Assembly (NCBI GenBank): GCA_026391695.1
Contig: JAPLDP010000033.1
Coordinates: forward strand, 1-64,000
Length of the DNA stretch: 64,000 bases
From: Bacteroidota bacterium
GTDB taxonomy: Bacteria > Bacteroidota > Bacteroidia > Bacteroidales > JAGONC01
Reading direction: 5' to 3'
Shown here: one piece after another, positions 171 through 25,792 of the stretch
Layout of the letters: each line of letters begins with the position of its first letter
Numbering within the stretch: position 1 is the stretch's first letter
The notes under the pieces: generated by a model
Database searches by the model: none
What the model was told of the DNA's origin: nothing
Seen by the model: the letters and a program-made list of their open reading frames with translations, nothing else
Translations under genes and position numbers: made by a program

Positions 171-2117
171 ATGAGTTATATAAAGTTTGATAAAACGCAG
201 TTGGTAAACCTTGAGTATTCGCTGAACAGGGAGTTGTTAAGGTCGAACCGGGCCGGATCATATGCGTGTACCACCATCATTGGGTGTAATACCCGCAAGT
301 ATCATGGTCTTTTAATAGCTCCTCAACCCGCTATTGATGGCGATAATCATGTTCTCCTTACTGCGTTTGATGAAACAATAATCCAGCATGGCACTGAATT
401 TAACCTGGGTATTCATAAATTCAAAGGAGAGGTGTACATGCCCAAAGGACATAAATATGTCACTGATTTTGAAGCAGATCCGATACCTGTTCTTACATAC
501 CGTGTGGGTGGAGTTGTCCTGCAAAAGGAGCGGTTGTTTTTATCCAATGATGCCCGCATATTATTCCGTTATACCCTTGTTGATGCGCATTCCCCAACGT
601 TGTTGAGGCTCCGGCCTTTTATGTCATTCCGGAATCACCATCATTTGAGCAAGGCCAATCATTTTGTTGAAAAGAAATATCAGCTTATTGAAAACGGTAT
701 AAAGGTAAGGATGTACCAGGGATATTCCCATCTCCATATGCAGTTTTCAAAGCCACCGGAATACACTCATGTGCCTGACTGGTACTATAATTTTGAATAT
801 ATCCGTGAAAAGGAGAGAGGGTACGACTGCCTGGAAGATCTTTATACGCCGGGATACTTTGAAATATCTATAAAGAAGGGGGAGAGTATAATTTTTTCAG
901 CAGGTTTGAGCCCAATAACTGTTACTACTCTCAAACGTGCATTTAGCGATGAAGTAAAGAAAAGGATCCCACGCGACAGTTTCGAAAACTGCCTTGGCAA
1001 TGCTGCGCAACAATTCATTGTCAGGCGTGGTAAGAGGACTGATATTATTGCAGGCTTTCCCTGGTTTGGCAGGTGGGGTAGGGATACTTTCATTTCTCTT
1101 CCCGGTTTAACATTGGTGCTGGAGAATCCTCAGACGTTTATCGCAGTCATCAACACCATACTTCAGGATCTCCACGGTTCTCTTTTCCCTAACTTCGGTA
1201 CAGGCCAGGAGCTATCATATAATTCAGTGGATGCACCTTTATGGTTTTTCTGGGCTTTACAGCAATATGTTATGCATACGAACCGCAAACAGCAGGTTTG
1301 GAAAGAATATGGCCATAAAATGAAGACGATACTGGAAGGTTACCGGAATGGTGATTTGTTCAATTTAAAGATGCTGGATAATGGCCTGATATATGCCGGA
1401 GAAACAGGTAAAGCCCTGACGTGGATGGATGCCATCGTTGACGGCAAGCCGGTTACACCGCGGGCCGGCATGCCTGTCGAAGTCAATTCTCTCTGGTATA
1501 ATGCGATCATGTTTAGTCTGGAACTCAGCAGGATCATGGACGATACATCCTTTATCGAAGGATGGCAGGATATATCATCTATGATACCCTTGTCTTTCAT
1601 CGATACATTTTGGGATGATAAAAAAGGTTATCTTGCCGACTATGTTGATGGTGACTATAAGAACTTTGATGTGCGGCCGAACATGGTCTTTGCTACATCC
1701 TTGCCGTATACACCGTTAGATGAGGAAAAAAGAAAAAGTATACTCGACGTGATCCGTAATGAATTGCTGACTTCACGCGGTTTACGGACACTCTCACCAA
1801 GTCACCCCGATTATCAGGGAGTGTATTATGGTGATCAATCGACACGCGACAGGATTTATCACAACGGATGCGTATTTCCCTGGTTGCTGGGCCATTTCGT
1901 CGAGGGTTATCTCCGCATTCATGGAAAATCTGGTTTAAGGTTTGTCAAACTCCTCTATAGTGGCTTTGAAGAGGTGATTCAGGATTATGGAATTGGTACC
2001 ATTGCGGAGCTTTATGATGGAGACCCTCCGCATAAGGCTGGCGGGGCTATATCACAGGCTTGGAGCGTTGCCGAGTTGCTGAGGATTGGAAAGATGCTGA
2101 AGAAGTATGAAACATGA
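171..2117 (+). CDS. amylo-alpha-1,6-glucosidase (glycogen debranching enzyme)
   Basis: Predicted cytosolic enzyme that hydrolyses alpha-1,6 branch points of glycogen. At 648 residues it has the usual two-part build: an N-terminal beta-sandwich domain (about residues 15-230, with NTRKYHGLL typical of this family) and a C-terminal alpha/alpha-toroid glucosidase domain (about 275-645). The motif GFPWFGRWGRDTF is a family hallmark, and Asp305 within it is a likely catalytic residue. The motif IAELYDGDPPHKAGG near the C-terminus matches the second acidic motif of the family. The ATG at 171 starts the conserved N-terminus. It is first in a run of glycogen genes on the same strand. Family assignment is firm; branch specificity is inferred. 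Confidence 0.93.
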   Translation: MSYIKFDKTQLVNLEYSLNRELLRSNRAGSYACTTIIGCNTRKYHGLLIAPQPAIDGDNHVLLTAFDETIIQHGTEFNLGIHKFKGEVYMPKGHKYVTDFEADPIPVLTYRVGGVVLQKERLFLSNDARILFRYTLVDAHSPTLLRLRPFMSFRNHHHLSKANHFVEKKYQLIENGIKVRMYQGYSHLHMQFSKPPEYTHVPDWYYNFEYIREKERGYDCLEDLYTPGYFEISIKKGESIIFSAGLSPITVTTLKRAFSDEVKKRIPRDSFENCLGNAAQQFIVRRGKRTDIIAGFPWFGRWGRDTFISLPGLTLVLENPQTFIAVINTILQDLHGSLFPNFGTGQELSYNSVDAPLWFFWALQQYVMHTNRKQQVWKEYGHKMKTILEGYRNGDLFNLKMLDNGLIYAGETGKALTWMDAIVDGKPVTPRAGMPVEVNSLWYNAIMFSLELSRIMDDTSFIEGWQDISSMIPLSFIDTFWDDKKGYLADYVDGDYKNFDVRPNMVFATSLPYTPLDEEKRKSILDVIRNELLTSRGLRTLSPSHPDYQGVYYGDQSTRDRIYHNGCVFPWLLGHFVEGYLRIHGKSGLRFVKLLYSGFEEVIQDYGIGTIAELYDGDPPHKAGGAISQAWSVAELLRIGKMLKKYET

Positions 2118-2204
2118 GTCGGCAGTCGGCAGTCGACAGTCGACAGTCGGCAGTCACTTTAAACGCAGTAAACTGCTGACTGCCTACTGTTGACTGCCGA
2201 CTTG
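2114..2204 (+). repeat. heptamer-phased inverted repeat (GGCAGTC family)
   Basis: The left part repeats the heptamers GGCAGTC and GACAGTC about five times. After a short spacer (about 2156-2177) the right part carries the complementary series (GACTGCC, TACTGTT, GACTGCC). The transcript could fold into a long stem. It fills most of the gap between the debranching enzyme and the GT4 gene, and may act as an intergenic terminator or mRNA-stabilising structure (inference). Confidence 0.75.
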
Positions 2205-2244
2205 ACAACGGACACGAAAAGAAATAAATAATAGAACAACATCA

Positions 2245-3537
2245 ATGAGAGTACTAATGTTCGGCTGGGAGTTTCCGCCTCATATCACCGGAGGACTTGG
2301 CACAGCATGCTTTGGATTGACCAAAGGATTAATGAAGCATGGGACAGAGGTCATCTTTGTTGTACCAAGAGCTTATGGCGATGAAAACCAGGAAGCTGTC
2401 AGACTGATTAATGCCAGTGACTTCTCGATAGATACCTCCGATCCGGAGTACAATGAATACTGGAAAAGAATCACCTTCCTTCAGATAGGATCAAATCTTA
2501 TACCCTACGTTGCCCCGGAAGAGTTCACCGACATTATTGTACAACAGGAACTGGAAAAGCAGACCGTCACAAAGGGGGTGTTCTCAAAACGGTTTGAATT
2601 TTCAGGAAAATATAACAAGGATCTTTTCGAGGAGATTTCCCGCTATGCGCTGGTAGCTTCTGCTGTGGCAGCTTCACAGGATTTCGATGTCATCCATGCA
2701 CATGACTGGCTCACTTACCCGGCAGGCATGGCAGCTAAATCGGTCAGTGGAAAACCTCTCGTCGTGCACATGCATGCCACTGAATTTGACCGTTCAGGTG
2801 AAAACGTGAACCAGAATATCTATGACATCGAACGCGAGGGCATGGAAACAGCCGACAGGGTAATTACAGTCAGCAACCTGACACGTCAGATCGTCATTCA
2901 GCGATATGGAATTGATCCTGATAAAGTCGTTACAGTTCATAATGCTGTCGAACCTGTGGATAAGGCAGACTTTTCGGATACCTCAAGAGGTGTAAAGGAA
3001 AAGATCGTCACTTTTCTGGGAAGGCTCACCTACCAGAAAGGACCTGAATATTTTGTTGAAGCGGCCAAGAAAGTACTTGAAAGAGACAGCCAGGTCAGAT
3101 TTGTTATGGCTGGTTCGGGAGATATGATGAAAAAAATGATACGGCGGGTTGCCACACTCAGGATGGCTACCAGGTTTCATTTCACAGGATTTCTGCAGGG
3201 TCAGGAAGTCGATCGTATGTTCCTTATGACCGACGTCTTCGTCATGCCATCAGTATCTGAACCTTTTGGCATCGTTCCCCTCGAAGCCATGCGTTCAAAT
3301 GTACCTGTCGTCATTTCACGGCAATCGGGTGTCGCCGAAGTTTTACGGCATGCCCTGAAGATAGATTTCTGGGATGTGGATGCCCTGGCCGACTCAATTT
3401 ATGGCTTATTGCATTATGAAGCTCTGTCGGCAATGTTTAAAAAATATGGTAAAGATGAAGTGGATAACCTTAAATGGGAAGATGCAGCATTGAAAGTGAA
3501 ACAGGTTTATGAGGATGTCATGAACCTCACCCCCTGA
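2245..3537 (+). CDS. GT4-family glycosyltransferase, bacterial glycogen synthase-like
   Basis: GT-B fold, retaining glycosyltransferase of family 4, 430 residues, probably cytosolic. The N-terminus has the sugar-nucleotide enzyme signature FGWEFPPHITGGLG (residues 6-19), typical of the glycogen synthase-like GT4 proteins found beside GH57 genes. The EX7E motif is SEPFGIVPLEAM, with Glu339 and Glu347. It lies between a debranching enzyme and a GH57 amylase, which suggests a role in alpha-glucan synthesis. The donor sugar cannot be told from sequence. It is distinct from the GT3 synthase encoded 3.6 kb downstream, so this locus carries two unrelated glucan synthase-like enzymes. Confidence 0.88.
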   Translation: MRVLMFGWEFPPHITGGLGTACFGLTKGLMKHGTEVIFVVPRAYGDENQEAVRLINASDFSIDTSDPEYNEYWKRITFLQIGSNLIPYVAPEEFTDIIVQQELEKQTVTKGVFSKRFEFSGKYNKDLFEEISRYALVASAVAASQDFDVIHAHDWLTYPAGMAAKSVSGKPLVVHMHATEFDRSGENVNQNIYDIEREGMETADRVITVSNLTRQIVIQRYGIDPDKVVTVHNAVEPVDKADFSDTSRGVKEKIVTFLGRLTYQKGPEYFVEAAKKVLERDSQVRFVMAGSGDMMKKMIRRVATLRMATRFHFTGFLQGQEVDRMFLMTDVFVMPSVSEPFGIVPLEAMRSNVPVVISRQSGVAEVLRHALKIDFWDVDALADSIYGLLHYEALSAMFKKYGKDEVDNLKWEDAALKVKQVYEDVMNLTP

Positions 3538-10151: not shown

Positions 10152-10196
10152 TCCCGACTTTGTCGGGATTTCGCTCAGCTGCGCTTCGCTCAGCTT
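10152..10196 (+). repeat. dispersed palindromic repeat, copy A
   Basis: Starts with the inverted repeat TCCCGAC-TTT-GTCGGGA, then TTTCGCTCAGC...CTTCGCTCAGCTT. Related copies lie at 18319, 19892, 47003, 62566 and 62626. It sits just after the fusion gene stop, and the hairpin may serve as a terminator (inference). Confidence 0.75.
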
Positions 10197-17305: not shown

Positions 17306-18201
17306 TATGATTTATCCAATAATTCCAGAAAGTATTTTTCCAGTGTTTTCTTTCGTTGTGCCAGATGTGACAGGACAATGCCTTTTTTGTACAGGAACCT
17401 GTTCAGCTCCAGTGTGGAGGTATTTCCCGACAGTTTGACAATGAGCCTGTCGCCTTCCTGAACACTTTCAACTACCTTATCGTATTGACTGATGGCCAGT
17501 TTCAGCTTATCCATGTGGTCAGTGCTGATTTCAACCAGGACTGTCTCGCTGAGGATCTCATTTACATTACCATAAAACAGTTTTTTCCCTTTTTCAAGAA
17601 CAACCACATGGGAGCAAGTTTTCTGTACTTCGTCGAGCAGGTGGCTGGCAAGTATGATGGTGATACCCTCGGTAGCAACACGGTTGATAAGTGTCCGCAC
17701 TTCTGCTATGCCCTGCGGGTCCAGCCCGTTGGTGGGTTCATCCAGGATCAGGACATCGGGGCTGCACAGAAGGGCAGCGGCAATAGCCATACGCTGCCGC
17801 ATGCCATAGGAAAATGTGCTGAACTTGCTGTTACGTCGGTCATAAAGACTTACAAGTTCAAGGTTCTTATCTATCTCATGATACGATACCTCTTTGATGT
17901 CACAAATGATCTGCAGATTTTTGATGGCAGACAGATAAGGATAAAACAGCGGCTGTTCAAGGATGGACCCTATCCGTTTCCGGCTGGTATGCGACGGTGG
18001 TTTACCAAACCAGGAATAGCTGCCCTGTGTTGGATTGATCACACCCAGGATCATTCCGAGGGTCGTGGTCTTCCCGCTGCCATTCGGCCCCAGTATGCCG
18101 CACACCTCTCCCTGGCGCACCTCCAGCGACACATCCTCTACAGCATGGATGTGCCCAAAATGCTTGGTGAGATTGTTTATAGTCAATACGACGTCGGCCA
18201 A
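17305..18201 (-). CDS. ABC transporter ATP-binding protein
   Basis: A 298-residue ATPase partner of the permease. Walker A is GPNGSGKT (residues 38-45), the signature region is FSYGMRQRM, and Walker B with catalytic Glu is VLILDEP, followed by the D-loop TNGLD. The last ~75 residues form a C-terminal domain found in drug/bacitracin-type exporters. The start is a TTG at 18201 giving MADVVLTINN; I see no in-frame ATG upstream that fits. It is first gene of a two-gene operon with the permease. Confidence 0.9.
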   Translation of the reverse strand: MADVVLTINNLTKHFGHIHAVEDVSLEVRQGEVCGILGPNGSGKTTTLGMILGVINPTQGSYSWFGKPPSHTSRKRIGSILEQPLFYPYLSAIKNLQIICDIKEVSYHEIDKNLELVSLYDRRNSKFSTFSYGMRQRMAIAAALLCSPDVLILDEPTNGLDPQGIAEVRTLINRVATEGITIILASHLLDEVQKTCSHVVVLEKGKKLFYGNVNEILSETVLVEISTDHMDKLKLAISQYDKVVESVQEGDRLIVKLSGNTSTLELNRFLYKKGIVLSHLAQRKKTLEKYFLELLDKS

Positions 18202-18303
18202 GGAGATGTAGTTGAACAGTTTATGTTATGAGACGAAGATAAGATGTTTTTATTACATGATACAGAAAATTATTTTCCCATGCTGGCGCATTAGCGGCTA
18301 TTA

Positions 18304-18429
18304 AGCAGGGAAAAGAAGTTGAACGAGGCGAAGCCGAGTGAAATCCCGACGAAAGTCGGGAGATGAAGAATTAAAGATACAAAATAAAAAATTCTTCATC
18401 AAATATTTTTCATTCTTCATCTCCCGGCC
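18304..18429 (-). repeat. ~126-bp element, left copy flanking the T9SS gene (repeat copy B)
   Basis: Contains the dispersed palindromic core (18319-18361, reverse orientation) and a perfect 15-base inverted repeat (18357-18371 with 18412-18426, CGGGAGATGAAGAAT). It shares order and most bases with the element at 19877-20009 on the other side of the T9SS gene. The remainder of the gap 18202-18659 is AT-rich with no gene seen. Confidence 0.7.
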
Positions 18430-18659
18430 AAAACTCTACTGACTTTCACTTAAAATGAATGTCAAATTACAGTAGGACATTTCATCATCCCGTTTTACAT
18501 ATTTCTTACAATTGCATTATGTATTTTGTACTTTTATGCATTCCAAAGAAACTCTGATACATTTTTATTCAAACTTCAATACAAATAGAAATTGACGATC
18601 AGAAAAAAAATTACACAGCCGAAATCAATAAATACTTTACATAACTAAAAACCTAGGCA

Positions 18660-19871
18660 ATGAAAAAGTCACCATTACTTTTAGTTTTTTTCTGCCTTTT
18701 CAGCATCACATCTTAGGCTCAGACAAGAGGAGCCTTGCGCGGCGAAATTTATGTCTCATCCCAAACATATGGCGGGTATGACGGCATGCATTATGCCATA
18801 TTTTATTCGTCAAATAACGGGGAAACCATGACTTTGGAGTACGAAAATGTTGAGAACCAACCTGGGGTTATGTGGGTGAGTTTTGTGCTTGGCGATGCCA
18901 CACCAGGTGTCGTATATAATCAGTATACTTACGGAATGAATAAATTGTGGGTGAGCTTTGATTATGGGGTGAATTGGGAATATAGAGGAAATAATCCCGA
19001 TTATACCCATTTTTTTAGTGGTGTTAATCCGGGATTAATTTTTAAAGGAAATTATGAAGGTTTTTTTAAAAGTATAGATTATGGATTATCATTTGAACTT
19101 CTGCCTATTACCGTTATTTGCCCTTTTACAGAAGTCGGCTTTATTGAACCGGAATTTTTTGGTATTTATGGTGAACCTGGTGTTGGTTATAACTTTGTAC
19201 ATAGTGTTGATTATGGACAAACCTATACTGAAATCCCAATCGACAGTTCAGTTGCTTTTTGGCAGATATCCGGCATTTATCCTCAAATTTCTCGGGGTAC
19301 TGAGCCGGGTGAATTGTACCTTGTTTCATGGTGGCCTGATTATCATTATAAAATATTTCATAGCATCGATACTGGATATTCATGGACGCTTAAATTTGAA
19401 TCTGGTTTTATTGACTTATACGATTGGTCAGTAAAATACTTGGCCGGACGTCAATCAGGATCCTTTTATGTGTTCCGCTCCACGTTAGATCCGACTTTAA
19501 ATCATAGGTTGTATTATATTGATTATAGTGAGGATTACGGAGAAACATTCATAACATATTTCCATGAACTTGATTCCATTTATACATCTGTAGCTGTCAT
19601 CCAAAAAACTGATCTGAGGTTGTCGGCTTCGCCAAATCCATTTTCCGATAAAACCAATATCGTTTTTTCCATTACCCATGCAGCAAGAATTTCGATAAAA
19701 GTCTACAACGTCTTCGGCGCTCTTGTAGAAATTCTTTTTGATGAATTTACCGAAACAGGCGAGCATCGGTTTACCTGGTCACCGAAAAACCTCTCTGAAG
19801 GGATTTATTACTATTCCCTCGAAGTGAATAATGAGAAGAAAGAGGTGAAAAAGATGATTTTGCTGAGGTAA
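18660..19871 (+). pseudogene. T9SS type A sorting protein, amber stop in signal peptide
   Basis: Reading from ATG 18660 gives a good signal peptide (MKKSPLLLVFFCLFSITS), then TAG at 18714, then in the same frame AQTRGALRGEIYVSS and 385 more codons. The expected residue at the stop is Gln (CAG to TAG is one transition), giving the classic signal-peptidase site SQAQ. The mature region has BNR/sortilin-like repeats (SVDYGQTYTEIP, SIDTGYSWTLKFE) and ends in a complete T9SS tail (SPNPFSDKTNI ... EGIYYYSLEVNN ... KMILLR). Without readthrough or a sequencing error the protein would not be exported. An internal TTG at 18735 could start a signal-less form. Confidence 0.75.
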
Positions 19872-19876
19872 AAATG

Positions 19877-20009
19877 GGCCGGGAAATGAAGTTGAACGAG
19901 GCTAAACTGAGTGAAATCCCGACGAAAGTCGGGAAATTAAGAATAAGGCTTACAAAATGAAGCATTTTTCATCATACATTTTTCATTCTTCATACTTCAT
20001 CTCCCGGCC
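19877..20009 (-). repeat. ~133-bp element with terminal inverted repeats, right copy (repeat copy C)
   Basis: Ends are inverted repeats of 16 bases with one mismatch (GGCCGGGAAATGAAGT at the left, ACTTCATCTCCCGGCC at the right). It contains the dispersed core at 19892-19934. The compact size, terminal inverted repeats and lack of coding sequence resemble a MITE-like element (inference). It directly follows the stop of the broken T9SS gene. Confidence 0.65.
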
Positions 20010-20067
20010 AACACAAAGCTTTTGGTTATCCCTGTTAACGCAAGTTTACTAGACATGTCTGCTAAGA

Positions 20068-22776
20068 TCAGGATGACTTGTCTCTCGTGAATCGTTCAAA
20101 GATTTTTCGTTCTTCCTGACTGAATTCATAAAGAGCTTTCTTGTCTTTTTTAAGGAAGTACCTTATGCCGATATCGAGATATCTGAGTGGATAGATGAAA
20201 TCTGGTAAACCTGCAAATAATTCATTCAATATTTGCTTCAGAATTTCAAACTTCATCGGGTCGATTTTGTTGTTTTTCCGTAATAATCCGAAAACAATAT
20301 TGGAAATAAGAGCTACCAGATGGTCCAGAGCTCCTTCACTTTCGCACAATGTTAATAGCCTGCTTAACACTTCCTTGATTTCAGTTTCACCGTTGTTGTT
20401 GATTAATCGTAATAAGGCATCTTCAATTCCAATCAGCTTAGGTAATCGGCCTTTTACTCTAAAAAATGCATCAACTTCAGTAATTGCAAGCTGTATTTCC
20501 TTCAGGGCAAACAAAACTTCCAAATAGGTTGAGAAATATAAAAACAAATCATTCTCATCTTCGTCGTAAGAGAAGCTGATAGCTTTTTGCAAGGCCTCTT
20601 TTGCCTTATTTAGCTGTCCATAACGATCAAATGAAACCCCAAGATTATTCCACACCCCGGCATCTTTTGGGTCGATTTCGATAGCTGAAGAATAATCCGA
20701 GATAGCGCCATTATAATCCTGCAACTCTGATTTAACAACACCCCTGGCGATTAAGGCACTAGTGTTTTTTGGGTCGATTTCAATAGCTAAAGAAAAATCC
20801 GATATGGCGCCCTGATAATCCTGCAAATTTGATTTAGCAATGCCCCGGTTGAAATATGCCTTGGCATCTTTTAGATCGATTTCGATGGCTGATGAATAGT
20901 CCAATACGGCGCCCTTATAATCCTGTATTTCTGATTTAGCATAACCTCGGTGGAAAAAGGCCTCAGCATCTTTTGGGTCGATTTCGATAGCTGAAGAATA
21001 ATCCGATATGGCGCCATGATAATCCTGCATTTCTGATTTAACGTAGCCCCGATAAAAATAGGCCTTGACATCTTTTGGGTCGATTTCGATGGCTGAAGAA
21101 TAATCCGAGATAGCGCCCTCATAATCTTGCATATTTGATTTAGCAAGTCCCCTGTAGAAATAGGCATCTGCATCTTTTGGATTAATTTCGATGGCTTTCC
21201 CAAGAGCTTCAATGGCATCCCCGTATTTACCAACTATGGCACTGGCTGTACCTATTATTCCAAGGATAAAATTGTTGTTGGGCATACTCACAAGGGCATC
21301 CCGTGCCATTTCAATCACTTTTTCCCATTCCCCGGAGTCCCCCAGTGATATAAGACTTTTAATAAAAGATTGATCTAACTCTTTCCAGGTGGATATCTCA
21401 TCAATTAACCGGCCGGCCTCTTCCGGATCACAGCAGGATTCCAGCTTCCTGATATCTTCTTCATTTACTGTCCAATGTTTTAAATAGTCGGATCTTACTA
21501 TTTCATAAATTCTGGCTTCATCATTATAGAGCCTTTTGAGCGGCTCCGGTTGAAAACGTTCCAAATAGGTATAACTGAGATATTTTGCTTTCAATTGCCC
21601 AGAAGAAAAAACCTTGCCTAAAAAGTTGGTGAACAATTTGATAATTCCATTACGGTCTTCATTGATTTCGATGCACATACGTAGAAGAGGTTCACTGATA
21701 TCATAGTACTTGTCTCTTCCTGTTTCGTTTACCGGATGTAAGTATCCCAATCGCTGCAGTTCCGAGATTAGTTTGGATATTGTATTTTTGTCGAGGAAAC
21801 AATCCCGGGCTATGTCGGCACCTTTTTGGGGATTGCGTTTAAGGCTGAGGTATTGAATTATTTTCTGCTGCTGGGGCGAAAGGTTTCTGATAAAACTATC
21901 ATAATAGGGCTTCAGTTCGTCAAGGGATTTAAGAAAAACTTCCGAGAGTTCGCTCCTGAAATCCGCTTTCAGGAAATCATAAAACACCAGTAAGAGCCGG
22001 TGGTTGCCCCTGGTAAATTCATGTATGGTTTCGAGATAACCTTTTCCTGTGGGCGTTTCCATAAATTTCACCATGTCCTCATTACCCTCGGCCTGGCTCA
22101 CCTTTTTAATAAATTCCAGAGATTCGTCAAGATCGAGCCGTTTAAGATGGATTATATCGAAGAATCCATAAAGAGGATTGGAATCATTAGAAAGGCTTTC
22201 AATAAGTGATTGATTGGTAGCAATGATTGAAACCTGGTTGAATTGCTGAATAAAGTCCCTGAGGCGGGATATCTCTATCACCTTATTCTTCCAATCCATC
22301 CCCCGCATGACGGTATCAAAGTTTTCGATAAGGATAAGCAGAATTTTTTTATCAAGAAAGCGACGCAGGATTTTTTCAGCGCTATTAGTCCACTCCCTGG
22401 GTGGGATTTCTTTCAACTGCTCGACCTCATTAATAAGGAATTCAGTTTTAACTGGATCATCACTCCACCGCTTTAATGCTTCAAAGATGCGCTGTAACAA
22501 ATCAAAATACGAGCCTATTCCGGTTTCTTCTTCTACCATGTAAGCGATTTCATGCTTGCGCATGTACTTGTCGTTTTTTGACAAGCGTTCATATACGAGC
22601 CTGAGGATATGGGTTTTACCGCTGCCTCGTGGGCCAATGATAAGATGCTGTGAAGGCATACCACCTTTCGTTTGTTGCAGTTGTGCTTCAACCAGCATGT
22701 CAACTATATGCTTCCGCCCGGTGAGCATTTTTTCCAACTTCGCAGGATTCTCTATTTTTGCATTAAATAAGTACAT
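20068..22776 (-). CDS. AAA ATPase - winged helix - TPR protein
   Basis: About 902 residues from ATG 22776 (MYLFNAKIENP); an upstream ATG at 22812 would overlap the preceding reading frame. The N-terminal part is a P-loop ATPase: IIGPRGSGKTH as Walker A and ILLILIENFD as Walker B, with a sensor-like SIIATNQS. A winged-helix domain follows (SPQQQKIIQYLSLKRNP ... ISKLISELQRLGYL). Residues ~525-735 are six nearly identical 34-residue TPR units (AIEIDPKDA ... RGYAKSEMQDY.GAISDYSS), then further helical repeats. The build is like STAND signalling ATPases. It lies 11 bases after a small ATPase gene on the same strand. Function unknown. Confidence 0.85.
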   Translation of the reverse strand: MYLFNAKIENPAKLEKMLTGRKHIVDMLVEAQLQQTKGGMPSQHLIIGPRGSGKTHILRLVYERLSKNDKYMRKHEIAYMVEEETGIGSYFDLLQRIFEALKRWSDDPVKTEFLINEVEQLKEIPPREWTNSAEKILRRFLDKKILLILIENFDTVMRGMDWKNKVIEISRLRDFIQQFNQVSIIATNQSLIESLSNDSNPLYGFFDIIHLKRLDLDESLEFIKKVSQAEGNEDMVKFMETPTGKGYLETIHEFTRGNHRLLLVFYDFLKADFRSELSEVFLKSLDELKPYYDSFIRNLSPQQQKIIQYLSLKRNPQKGADIARDCFLDKNTISKLISELQRLGYLHPVNETGRDKYYDISEPLLRMCIEINEDRNGIIKLFTNFLGKVFSSGQLKAKYLSYTYLERFQPEPLKRLYNDEARIYEIVRSDYLKHWTVNEEDIRKLESCCDPEEAGRLIDEISTWKELDQSFIKSLISLGDSGEWEKVIEMARDALVSMPNNNFILGIIGTASAIVGKYGDAIEALGKAIEINPKDADAYFYRGLAKSNMQDYEGAISDYSSAIEIDPKDVKAYFYRGYVKSEMQDYHGAISDYSSAIEIDPKDAEAFFHRGYAKSEIQDYKGAVLDYSSAIEIDLKDAKAYFNRGIAKSNLQDYQGAISDFSLAIEIDPKNTSALIARGVVKSELQDYNGAISDYSSAIEIDPKDAGVWNNLGVSFDRYGQLNKAKEALQKAISFSYDEDENDLFLYFSTYLEVLFALKEIQLAITEVDAFFRVKGRLPKLIGIEDALLRLINNNGETEIKEVLSRLLTLCESEGALDHLVALISNIVFGLLRKNNKIDPMKFEILKQILNELFAGLPDFIYPLRYLDIGIRYFLKKDKKALYEFSQEERKIFERFTRDKSS
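20640..21200 (-). repeat. 102-bp tandem coding repeats (TPR units)
   Basis: Six consecutive units of 102 bases encode the TPR array. They are highly similar in DNA as well as protein (the segment for EIDPKDA recurs with almost no synonymous change), which points to recent duplication or gene conversion and possible copy-number variation. Confidence 0.7.
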
Positions 22777-22787
22777 AGCATGAAGAA

Positions 22788-23962
22788 TTAAGTATAATTT
22801 AGTTTCCACCATTTTTTTAAAAGGCTATACCTGAATGAATAACTTATTGTATCTTCATCATCTAACCTGTCCAAATACATATCCTCATATAGCTCCCTAA
22901 GCATTCCAGAAATTTCGGAATCATCGGCTACTATGTTTTGTTTCACAAGGTTGATAAGTTTATTGGACGTGATTGGTTCCGCACTTTTACATAAAATACG
23001 CAAGAGTTCATGAGCCATTTTTTTTCCTTATCGGCATAATAAGTATCAATACGTTCGGTAAAATGCCCGAACTGGTTATTATGCTCGCGGGCCGAAACGA
23101 ACTCTGAAATGGTTTTATCAATTACTTCATTTGAAACAGAATTACTTTGTGCATTAAGTTTCAGTTGAGTAAATATTCGGTCGATAAAAAAAGGGAGGTA
23201 GGAGGTGGCTTTTGCCAGATGAGAAATATCGGAAATATGCATTTGGTTTTTTTTTGATAAATGCCTGATCAGTGCCTCGGCATCTGAAGGACTCATTTCT
23301 TGTACAATATAGTGATGCATATTATTAAGCGGAGCTCCGCTGTATCTATGTTCCTTCTTCAGATAATTGATAACGAGGTTCATGCCAACAGAACCACAAT
23401 AGATAAACCTGAGGCCGGAACGTTTTTCATATTTCTCCCTGATTGTCCTTAGTTCATCCAGTATTTCTTCGGCCTGGATGTGATTACCATTACTAATAAG
23501 GTTCCACAGCATTTTAGGAAACTCGTCCAGCATGAGAATGACTCTATCCTTGTGTTTTGAGATAAGATCATCAATAATTAGATTGAAGATGACTTTCCAG
23601 TGTCTGGTAAATTCGGGAGTTTTAAAATAACCAAAATCTTTGTTCCCTAAATTGTGGTTTAGCCAGTCAAGTACTTTTTTGAAATCGTTTTTCTTTATCA
23701 ATCCTTGTTCAATCAGTCTTTCCCTGATTACATTCACAAATTCTTCGGCAGTCTGTACCGATTCGACAAAGCAGAGCATTGACTTCTGTCCGTATGAGGA
23801 GATTTCATCCATTTTGGTGAGAATCATTGTTTTACCCATTCTGCGGACGGAACTTATCACCACACTACAGTGTTCAAGGATGATCCGGAGATCATTAATT
23901 TCTTTTTCCCTTCCGATTATATCAGATACAATTGGTTTCATAATACTGATTTTAATATTCAT
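22788..23962 (-). pseudogene. archaeal-type AAA ATPase, split by a frameshift at an A8 run
   Basis: The first part (23962 down to ~23020) encodes an ATPase of the PF01637-like type: GREKEINDLR, then a degenerate Walker A SVRRMGKT and Walker B VILMLDEFP. After ERIDTYYADKEKK the frame goes off into a poor ending. A -1 shift at the A8 run (23018-23025) continues into MAHELLRILCKSAEPITSNKL ... SYSFRYSLLKKWWKLN, which is the winged-helix C-terminal domain this family has. Combined length ~378 residues is normal. Possible starts are 23962 and 23941. Either the gene is broken, or slippage on the A-run (programmed or phase-variable) yields full protein, or it is a homopolymer sequencing error. Confidence 0.75.
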
Positions 23963-23965
23963 TTA

Positions 23966-23993
23966 TATCGTACGATAAAAACATCGTACGATA
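23966..23993 (-). promoter_or_regulatory. two copies of the palindrome ATCGTACGAT, 16 bp apart
   Basis: Perfect 10-base palindromes at 23967-23976 and 23983-23992, each followed by AAAAA. The 16-base period is about one and a half helical turns. They lie immediately before the start of the small ATPase gene, where an operator would be expected. Confidence 0.6.
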
Positions 23994-24062
23994 AAAATAG
24001 CGCAAATATAATACATTTTTTTGTAAATCCGGTATTTCGTAGAATTTTTTTTGATTTTTAGA

Positions 24063-24094
24063 ACCACTCGCTGCAAACGCGCGCCAGCGGTGGT
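24063..24094. repeat. hairpin ACCAC-T-CGCTG ... CAGCG-GTGGT
   Basis: Ten-base-pair stem with a one-base bulge and an 11-base GC-rich loop (CAAACGCGCGC), in an otherwise AT-rich gap between the ATPase promoter and the RsmI-like gene end. It could be a terminator for the gene on - (no T-run) or a fragment of a dispersed element. Confidence 0.5.
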
Positions 24095-24122
24095 AGTATA
24101 GGTAGTACTACTGACCGGGATT

Positions 24123-24836
24123 TTATTTGTAAATCAGAAACACCGCCGGCCTCTTATTTATTTCGGGTCTGTCTTTCTTCCATTCACTGATGCTCAAAGT
24201 TCTGATGAACTCAGCGTCCGTTGTCAGGTCGCAGGCAATGCACAGCATCGTCTCGGATGCGCATACCTCTATTACAGACTCGAACATCACCATGTTCCTG
24301 TATGGGGCTTCGATGAAAATTTGCGTCTGGCTGTCTTTATAGACTTTTTTCTCCAATTCTTTTAATGACCGGAGTCTCTCATTTTTATTGACAGGCAGAT
24401 AGCCATGGAAGACAAAGTTCTGTCCGTTGAAACCCGATGCCATGAGTGCCAGGATGATCGACGATGGACCGGTTAAGGGAACCACACGGATGCCACTAAG
24501 GTGTGCTTCCCTGACAATACCGGCACCTGGATCAGCCACACATGGCGCCCCAGCTTCCGATAATAGCCCTATATCATTGCCGGATAGCAGTGAATCAATG
24601 ACAGGACGGATATCTCCCTCTTCCGAATGTTCATTGTAAATATAAAACCTGACAGTCTCAAAGTCCCTCATATAACCTATCCTACGAAGAAATCTCCGTG
24701 CAGTTCTTTCTTCTTCAACGACAAATTCACTGAGTTGCAACATAATTTCCCTGTTTCGGACCGGTATGACAAGGTCGATGTCAGAATCGCCAATTGCCGA
24801 GGGGAGTAAATAAAGTTTTCCGTTCATCTTATCCAT
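24123..24836 (-). CDS. RsmI-like SAM-dependent methyltransferase (tetrapyrrole methylase fold)
   Basis: A 237-residue protein of the SAM-dependent tetrapyrrole-methylase fold, related to RsmI, which 2'-O-methylates C1402 of 16S rRNA. Conserved motifs are LLSEAGAPCVADPG, VVPLTGPSSIILALMASGFNGQNFVFHGYLP and the IEAPYRN segment. It is shorter than E. coli RsmI (286 residues) and its N-terminus lacks the usual G-rich TPIGNL start (it reads LYLLPSAIGD), so it is the divergent Bacteroidota paralogue. The start may be 24836 (13-base overlap with the upstream gene) or 24827 (ATGA overlap). Third gene of the dnaA operon. Confidence 0.8.
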   Translation of the reverse strand: MDKMNGKLYLLPSAIGDSDIDLVIPVRNREIMLQLSEFVVEEERTARRFLRRIGYMRDFETVRFYIYNEHSEEGDIRPVIDSLLSGNDIGLLSEAGAPCVADPGAGIVREAHLSGIRVVPLTGPSSIILALMASGFNGQNFVFHGYLPVNKNERLRSLKELEKKVYKDSQTQIFIEAPYRNMVMFESVIEVCASETMLCIACDLTTDAEFIRTLSISEWKKDRPEINKRPAVFLIYK

Positions 24837-25792
24837 GATATCTTCATCAAATCAACATTCCCACCCGATAAAATAATCCCGATCTTTTTACCTTTTATCT
24901 CCAAAGCCTGGATATCACCCGATTTGCTGATTTCGAGGAGAGCAGCTACCGGCACGGCTGATGAGGGCTCAATAATGATTTTCATCCGTTCCCATATCAA
25001 TTTCATGGCGTCGATGATACTCTCCTCCCTGACTGTCAATATTTTATGAACATAATCAAGGATGATTGGGAATGTCAGGCTTCCTAAAGAGGTCAGTAAT
25101 CCGTCGGCAATGGTATTGGGATTGACTGAGGGGACAAATTTCCTGGTTGTGAACGACAGGAAAGCATCGTTGGCCTGTTGAGGTTCGGATCCCACGACTA
25201 AAGTCGTGGGGGAGATATAGGCGGTGATGAGAGCAGTGCCACTCAACAGGCCACCGCCGCCGACAGGGGTGAGGATATAATCGAGGTGGGGCACATCTTC
25301 GATAAGTTCTTTTGCCGCTGTCGCCTGACCAGCAATAGTCCGGTAATCATTATAGGGATGCAGCTCTGTGGCATTCGTCTTGGCCATGACCACTTTCAGG
25401 GTTTCTTCTCTGGATGCGAGAGTGGGTTTACAGAAGGTGATGATGCCGCCATAGTTCCGCACAGCGTCTACCTTTACATTGGATGATGTTTCGGGCATCA
25501 CAATGTATGCCTTAATGCTGCGGTTATGCGCGGCCAGAGCCAGCGCCTGGGCATGGTTGCCGGAGGAATGTGTGCAGACACCATTCTTCACCTCCTCATC
25601 CGTGAGTGAGAAAACTCCATTGGTAGCACCGCGAAATTTGAATGCTCCTGCCTTCTGAAAATTTTCACATTTAAAAAATACTTCAGCACCCAGCAGGGCA
25701 TTAATATTTTTTGAGGTCAGGATGGGTGTGCGGTGAATATAGTAGTGAATACGTTTGGCTGCCTGTTCAATGGCCTTCAGGTCGGGAACCAT
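24824..25792 (-). CDS. threonine/serine dehydratase-like PLP enzyme
   Basis: Fold-type II pyridoxal-phosphate enzyme of 322 residues, cytosolic. Lys52 in KAGAFKFRGA is the PLP-binding lysine; SSGNHAQALA and the phosphate-binding loop VGGGGLLSG are present. Without a C-terminal ACT domain it resembles catabolic threonine dehydratase or serine racemase rather than biosynthetic IlvA. Its start overlaps the dnaA stop by one base (TAATG), and its stop overlaps the RsmI-like gene, so the three form a coupled operon. A 20-base palindrome lies inside the coding sequence at 25191-25210. Confidence 0.87.
   Translation of the reverse strand: MVPDLKAIEQAAKRIHYYIHRTPILTSKNINALLGAEVFFKCENFQKAGAFKFRGATNGVFSLTDEEVKNGVCTHSSGNHAQALALAAHNRSIKAYIVMPETSSNVKVDAVRNYGGIITFCKPTLASREETLKVVMAKTNATELHPYNDYRTIAGQATAAKELIEDVPHLDYILTPVGGGGLLSGTALITAYISPTTLVVGSEPQQANDAFLSFTTRKFVPSVNPNTIADGLLTSLGSLTFPIILDYVHKILTVREESIIDAMKLIWERMKIIIEPSSAVPVAALLEISKSGDIQALEIKGKKIGIILSGGNVDLMKISWIR
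25191..25210. repeat. palindrome CCCACGAC-TAAA-GTCGTGGG inside a coding region
   Basis: Perfect 8-base arms with a 4-base loop, within the threonine dehydratase-like gene, encoding part of SPTTLVVGSEP. The reading frame and the family length are kept here. Confidence 0.7.

Follow-up and report, generated by a model that had tools for sequence, protein, structure and literature searches.

The window, by which we mean the whole 64,000-nucleotide stretch of DNA that was analysed, carries a gene for a T9SS-exported protein between two related foldback elements, inside an island that separates two conserved neighbours. The features are listed in window coordinates; C numbers denote contigs of the same genome, and G001, G003 and G004 are related genomes.

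17308–18201, minus strand: ABC-transporter ATPase, conserved left neighbour
18202–24122: island of 5.9 kb, absent from G001, G003 and G004 at the corresponding site
18202–18217, plus strand: 16-bp remnant of the left end of an element, with 1 mismatch; it touches the ABC start codon and forms the left edge of the island
18304–18429, plus strand: element L, with hairpin 1 (CCCGACGAAAGTCGGG) and a long foldback (hairpin 2)
18430–18659, plus strand: 5' region, also at C55; 18496–18648 also at C19
18660–19871, plus strand: T9SS-cargo Asp-box propeller gene, 404 codons, internal TAG at codon 19 (18714–18716)
18984–19196, plus strand: central block, type A (residues 90–160, counted from 18717), apparently exchangeable
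19626–19868, plus strand: type-A T9SS sorting domain (CTD-A), like the C-termini of the C82 and C78 proteins
19632–19645, plus strand: chimeric junction, where propeller homology stops and CTD-A homology starts, with a 14-bp overlap at the SASPNPFS codons
19877–20009, plus strand: element R, with 16-bp terminal inverted repeats (TIRs), 6 bp 3' of the stop codon
20068–22812, minus strand: ATPase_2/AAA domain with TPR repeats (STAND-like), within the island
22943–23962, minus strand: second ATPase with weak ATPase_2/AAA matches, within the island
24123–24851, minus strand: RsmI-like methyltransferase (TP_methylase just below cut-off), conserved right neighbour

The reading frame of the bracketed gene is interrupted once, at codon 19, so that its signal peptide is not intact; the C55 paralogues are open at that position. 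The part 3' of the stop encodes a T9SS sorting domain (PF18962, E 1.9e-9, above cut-off). With this domain and this sole lesion, the broken T9SS gene that the original prediction placed between the elements is confirmed. Asp-box/BNR repeats were matched below cut-off (BNR, E 1.2e-4). The AlphaFold2 model (pLDDT 78, pTM 0.76) is all-beta and consistent with an Asp-box beta-propeller, and its Foldseek matches include GH74 proteins, sortilin, sialidases and PorZ (E down to 1e-7, TM-scores 0.2–0.4). Relative to the nearest paralogue, the C55 copy, dN/dS is 0.13/0.63 over 256 codons, and the stop therefore looks recent; alternatively, it may be a base error in the draft assembly. About 150 bp of the 5' region (18496–18648, C55:7298–7449, C19:53896–54043) recur on C55 and C19 with 92% conservation. 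The C19 copy is followed by no visible T9SS gene start up to the contig end.

The two matching elements of ~130 bp in the same orientation, as originally described, were recovered as a direct repeat (D2, 18305–18420 versus 19878–19993, 84% over 116 nt) and with a 44-base core pattern (three N positions, up to three mismatches), which matched elements L and R only in the window and nothing in 100 shuffles. The 16-base TIRs of the right copy also stood, with one mismatch: element R starts with GGCCGGGAAATGAAGT and ends with the reverse complement of GGCCGGGAGATGAAGT, while element L has a degenerate 5' end (GCAGGGAAAAGAAGT). As RNA, both elements fold into long foldbacks (z -6.8 for element R and -6.0 for element L; 0 of 200 shuffles equally stable). 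A terminator search at the elements gave no match, and an Rfam search returned only miRNA and sRNA family matches far below gathering scores. Elements L and R diverge by 16–19%, which is too much for a recent exchange between these two.

Further copies of the element were found by sequence search, dispersed over the contigs of the window's own genome (G000), a fragmented draft of 3.63 Mb in 95 contigs. Their alignment is modular. A leader with hairpin 1 is combined with hairpin 2, a longer AT-rich foldback, and the ends are of the GGCCGGGAGATGAAG type; individual copies hold hairpin 1 alone, hairpin 2 alone, or both. A sequence-model search gave at least 13 loci above 36 bits, from 12 of which the model had been built; the number is a lower bound because 150 of 4652 first-look candidates were scored. 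Eight of the 13 lie at T9SS genes or at a T9SS remnant (window L, window R, C55:7142, C82:703, C78:67405, C78:74263, C65:281 and C15:4182). Among these, C78:67405 lies 531 bp upstream of a T9SS gene, C15:4182 lies 165 bp upstream of a trypsin-like T9SS gene, and C65:281 adjoins a sorting-domain remnant of 26 residues. The expectation that the element would be found beside other T9SS genes is thus borne out at further T9SS units of this genome, but the element is not T9SS-specific, as the other five loci (C84, C42, C65:693, C70:1337 and C78:66513) lie away from such genes. On C78 and C65 the element points the opposite way to the gene. The exact core pattern was absent from genome_contigs, where the own genome is possibly missing, and from viral_contigs; phages gave no element match, and plasmids a single one, over 35 bp of a Priestia plasmid. 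A related hairpin, CCCGACTTTGTCGGGATTTCGCTCAGC, is also dispersed in the genome (window 10152–10196 and contigs C25, C21, C35, C74 and C89), and at contig C25 it adjoins a PF05635 gene.

The element family is best modelled as lineage-restricted mosaic foldback repeats that are BIME/MITE-like. In the outline given by PMC3733652, BIME/REP palindromes are short intergenic palindromic modules, variously combined and dispersed in the genome. The element resembles them as so outlined, being a mosaic of short palindromes outside genes, with either hairpin or both, and differs in its length of ~130 bp, in its frequent position at T9SS and accessory genes and in its few copies (at least 13), a low number for a REP family. 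Neither hairpin motif, searched as an exact pattern that degenerate copies would escape, occurred at any of the five PF01797 (RAYT, Y1_Tnp) loci with ~1.5 kb of flanks, and we rejected a RAYT-driven REP on this ground. BrickBuilt and other Porphyromonas gingivalis MITEs, in the features summarised by PMC4596501, are intergenic and lineage-restricted, with imperfect TIRs, stem-loops and no internal transposase. All of this applies to the element, whose TIRs are intact in element R save for the one mismatch and degenerate in element L. Unlike BrickBuilt, for which a 23-nt minisatellite is described (PMC4596501), the elements bracket duplicated gene units and mark island edges. Target-site duplication was not seen: by eye, no matching flanks were found at six elements (C33R, C33L and four elements of locus L180, described below), and a MITE with target duplication was rejected.

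We compared the window with the rest of the genome, all against all. Window 18362–19429 matches C55:7157–8227 at 87%, and window 19632–20000 matches C82:455–818 at 82%, so that the two halves are 87% and 82–84% identical to their sources. On these alignments the window gene is a chimera, with a C55-like 5' region and body and a C82/C78-like sorting domain and right element. CTD-A is 78–80% identical to the C82 and C78 C-termini, whereas the sorting domains of the rest of the family, alignable in 30 members, are all 12–36% identical to it. CTD-A forms the C-terminus of the C82 protein, whose upstream part, on C54, opens with a C25 propeptide, and it also ends a C78 protein of 1143 residues in which a beta-helix is present and a C25 match is lacking. 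These fuller operon copies, C55-C54-C82 (with the C25 propeptide) and C78, carry elements at both outer ends; the order C55-C54-C82 was deduced from overlaps of 122 and 141 bp between contig ends. Since the C82 and C78 proteins end in CTD-A, the window gene would most simply be the body of the first operon gene fused to the sorting domain of the last, and the locus is probably an internally deleted operon unit. The C25-type gene on C54 (L086) lies in two overlapping frames, 2047–3177 and 3–2114; this copy may therefore be disrupted or carry a sequence error. C54-like DNA was present near propellers in 5 of 10 relatives' loci compared, and a C54-like gene directly followed the last propeller in 6 of 15 downstream regions read by eye.

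In the alignments, most boundaries of homology between unit copies coincide with elements. The homology between the window and C55 begins inside element L and runs almost unbroken through the 5' region, and that between the window and C82 stops together with element R. The exception is C65/C78, where homology extends ~110 bp beyond the element.

In G001, G003 and G004, 8–16 bp separate the ABC ATPase gene from the RsmI-like gene, beyond which come a threonine dehydratase-like gene of the PALP family and dnaA; in the window, the bracketed gene and the two ATPases are inserted between the ABC ATPase and the RsmI-like gene. The site is empty in these three relatives. Deletion or replacement between the two elements, as the original prediction had envisaged for related strains, stands as far as the gene's absence goes, but the inserted stretch of 5.9 kb reaches beyond the bracketed gene. 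The element remnant at the left edge was equalled in 1 of 300 shuffles, and 0.06 matches with up to two mismatches are expected in the window; the right edge showed no clear element (score 18, reached by 113 of 300 shuffles). PADLOC gave a best E of 3e-4 for the two island ATPases, the second protein being without a match. The TPR repeats of the STAND-like ATPase have a period of 102 nt.

A second island in the same genome has elements at its edges, C78:66513–66588 and C82:702–821. Homology to G004 ends at C78:66482 and restarts at C82:826, with corresponding positions C78:66388 and C82:807 for G003 and C78:66393 and C82:974 for G001. On either side lie a carboxyltransferase gene (left of C78:66482) and a metallo-hydrolase gene (right of C82:826), and in G001, G003 and G004 these two are neighbours with one small gene between them. 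Because the intervening contigs are not joined, it is from this gene order that the two edges probably belong to one island. In G003 the small gene is a four-helix PF05635 gene with a foldback repeat on either side. A different small gene, which we take to be GxxExxY-like, occupies the gap in G001 and G004; its frame is interrupted in both genomes, and the G004 copy lies between inverted repeats. Taken together, the gap holds three kinds of insert across four related genomes (L208, L209, L210 and the own C78/C82).

Comparable brackets occur in relatives. At locus L180 (JAEINX010000018, Bacteroidales MAG15), a palindrome with a 15-bp stem and a sequence unrelated to the window element is present in four copies, all oriented alike. 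The first precedes propeller 1, the second separates propellers 1 and 2, and the other two follow propeller 3 and the last gene of the operon, a C25 peptidase gene. There is no copy after propeller 2. The palindromes lie 18–25 bp after three stops, 226–228 bp before the starts of propellers 1 and 2, and ~370 bp before the start of the peptidase gene (185 bp at L194 of the same MAG); the window distances are 6 bp after the stop and 231 bp before the start. Similarity between the first two tandem units sets in abruptly just upstream of the palindrome. The 5' regions of the window and L180 share no clear similarity (score 21, no shuffle control). Among 16 relatives' arrays, brackets were clear in two when compared with the best of 10 shuffles: L180 (146 versus 36) and L182 (78 versus 29), which has a direct bracket of another sequence than the L180 palindrome. 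L191 was marginal (40 versus 36), L173 barely above shuffles (28 versus 27), and the score of 210 for G44 comes from similarity between sorting-domain coding sequences; the remaining 11 arrays were at or below shuffles. L185 and L190, which repeat G44 and G3C59, and C78, from the own genome, were excluded. The test is of limited power because several relatives' contigs end early.

These positions also bear on a plainer account, that the elements are ordinary BIME/REP-like hairpins, serving 3'-end protection or termination, which were copied along with a duplicated T9SS operon, and that unit edges coincide with them because alignments stop at intergenic repeats. Copies 6–25 bp after stop codons in the window and L180, the strong hairpins and the copies at non-T9SS genes all fit. 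Element sequence at both edges of the large second island and at the left edge of the window island does not, nor do the abrupt onset of homology beside the L180 palindrome and the want of a terminator-like site at the elements, and we regard both parts of this account as possible, though rather unlikely. That assembly or binning at repeats has produced the pattern is highly improbable. The genome is a draft of many contigs, several of which end inside these genes; however, the window flanks are syntenic with three relatives, an independent MAG (L180) has the same architecture, and the window gene is not a join of known contigs, because its halves differ by 13–18% from the nearest copies.

Bracketing extends beyond T9SS genes. 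PF05635 genes of G000 and G003 were bracketed by direct or inverted repeats in 13 of 21 cases, versus 1 of 34 neighbouring control ORFs (p 1.6e-6). The set comprised 23 matches (L215–L237), of which L234 (below cut-off) and L235 (no usable reading frame) were dropped; the PF05635 gene on C55 scored as not bracketed. The bracket sequences are locus-specific and unrelated between most loci. The T9SS brackets may be one case of a wider bracketing habit.

In an integron cassette, an ORF is followed soon after its stop by an imperfect palindrome of uniform orientation, with the attC core motif RYYYAAC...GTTRRRY. The L180 palindromes, shortly 3' of stops and all in one orientation, resemble this arrangement. 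They differ from it in that each unit has its own 5' region, no integrase was identified and the core was found in none of nine elements, on which ground an integron was rejected. A more general, integron-like proposal is that the palindrome is the recombination site of an enzyme acting in trans, gene and palindrome together being the moving unit. The uniform orientation at L180, the PF05635 bracketing over control ORFs and the one gap that holds different small genes in relatives, with flanking repeats in G003 and G004, agree with it. No recombinase was identified in a search that covered PF01797, however, attC core and target duplication are lacking at the nine and six elements inspected, and the repeats of different genomes, like those of most PF05635 loci, are unrelated in sequence. 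A true mobile cassette is accordingly improbable to our mind.

Inside the units, the propeller family appears to exchange a two-blade block. Residues 90–160 fall into six types at 50% identity among 33 family members (33 of 40 reading frames, seven partial frames having been dropped), and form about two blades of the predicted propeller, between two Asp-boxes at residues 80–87 and 163–170 (the second read by eye). Block types are common to several genera. Block type is nearly independent of flanking sequence: over 32 members, the Mantel r was 0.62 for flank versus flank, and 0.08 (p 0.11) and 0.17 (p 0.014) for flank versus block. In topology tests each tree was rejected for the other part (p-AU 1.7e-4 and 3e-55, from 5000 resamplings, fewer than the program recommends). 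The tandem paralogue pair of G2C202 is ~95–100% identical in DNA over much of both flanks and ~50% inside the block. Within tandem arrays, 0 of 12 pairs shared a block type, where about a fifth of pairs is the random expectation, which is only suggestive of block-type exclusion. For Kgp of P. gingivalis, domain rearrangement or allelic exchange that does not follow strain phylogeny is among the points described in PMC5266723. The present surface proteins are likewise varied through domain exchange; unlike Kgp as described there, tandem paralogues differ in two-blade block and sorting domain, and units have palindromic brackets (PMC5266723). We found no description of palindrome-bracketed T9SS units in the literature, as covered by titles and abstract openings, with most subscription papers outside this scope.

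We favour, with a probability of roughly 60%, the reading that the foldback repeats are homology joints for the duplication, deletion and exchange of surface-gene units. BIME/MITE-like foldback repeats would sit at the outer ends of T9SS propeller-peptidase units, and unequal homologous recombination between elements and between paralogous genes would duplicate, move and collapse these units. The window locus would be a unit shrunk through internal deletion, and the 16-bp remnant that forms the island's left edge would record entry at an element. The elements would then be joints, perhaps also RNA 3'-end hairpins, rather than transposons with an enzyme of their own. In favour of this joint reading are the dispersed copies, the mosaic boundaries, the sorting-domain swap, the empty site, the left-edge remnant, the second island, L180 and the recombination within the propeller family. 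Against it stand the divergence of elements L and R, the five copies off T9SS genes, the right island edge without a clear element, the inversion in C78 and C65, the C65/C78 overrun, the clear brackets in few arrays, the gaps at L180 and the fragmented draft; recombination at the elements, as the probable cause of the unit structure, is read from sequence. The original idea of a cassette moved or exchanged by recombination between repeats survives in part: dispersed copies, homology edges mostly at elements, the empty site and the L180 parallel support it, whereas elements L and R are too divergent for recent exchange and the element is inverted in C78 and C65.

A broader and decidedly speculative proposal, which we consider unlikely as it stands, is a non-integron cassette system of Bacteroidales. 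Foldback repeats that differ between lineages and are alike in position (often ~230 bp before a start and within 25 bp of a stop) would bound units of one gene or one operon (T9SS propellers and peptidases; genes of the four-helix PF05635, ORF6N and HigB types). Exchange of these units would take place at shared intergenic sites, and the surface proteins inside would be varied further by two-blade block swaps.

If the joint reading is true, it would provide a concrete route by which Bacteroidota rebuild their sets of T9SS-exported surface proteins. Units would begin and end at palindromic joints, and exchanged protein blocks at conserved codons of the Asp-boxes and the sorting domain, with testable breakpoints and a parallel in a second lineage. 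It may also help to explain why, in these draft genomes, several contigs break off in such genes.
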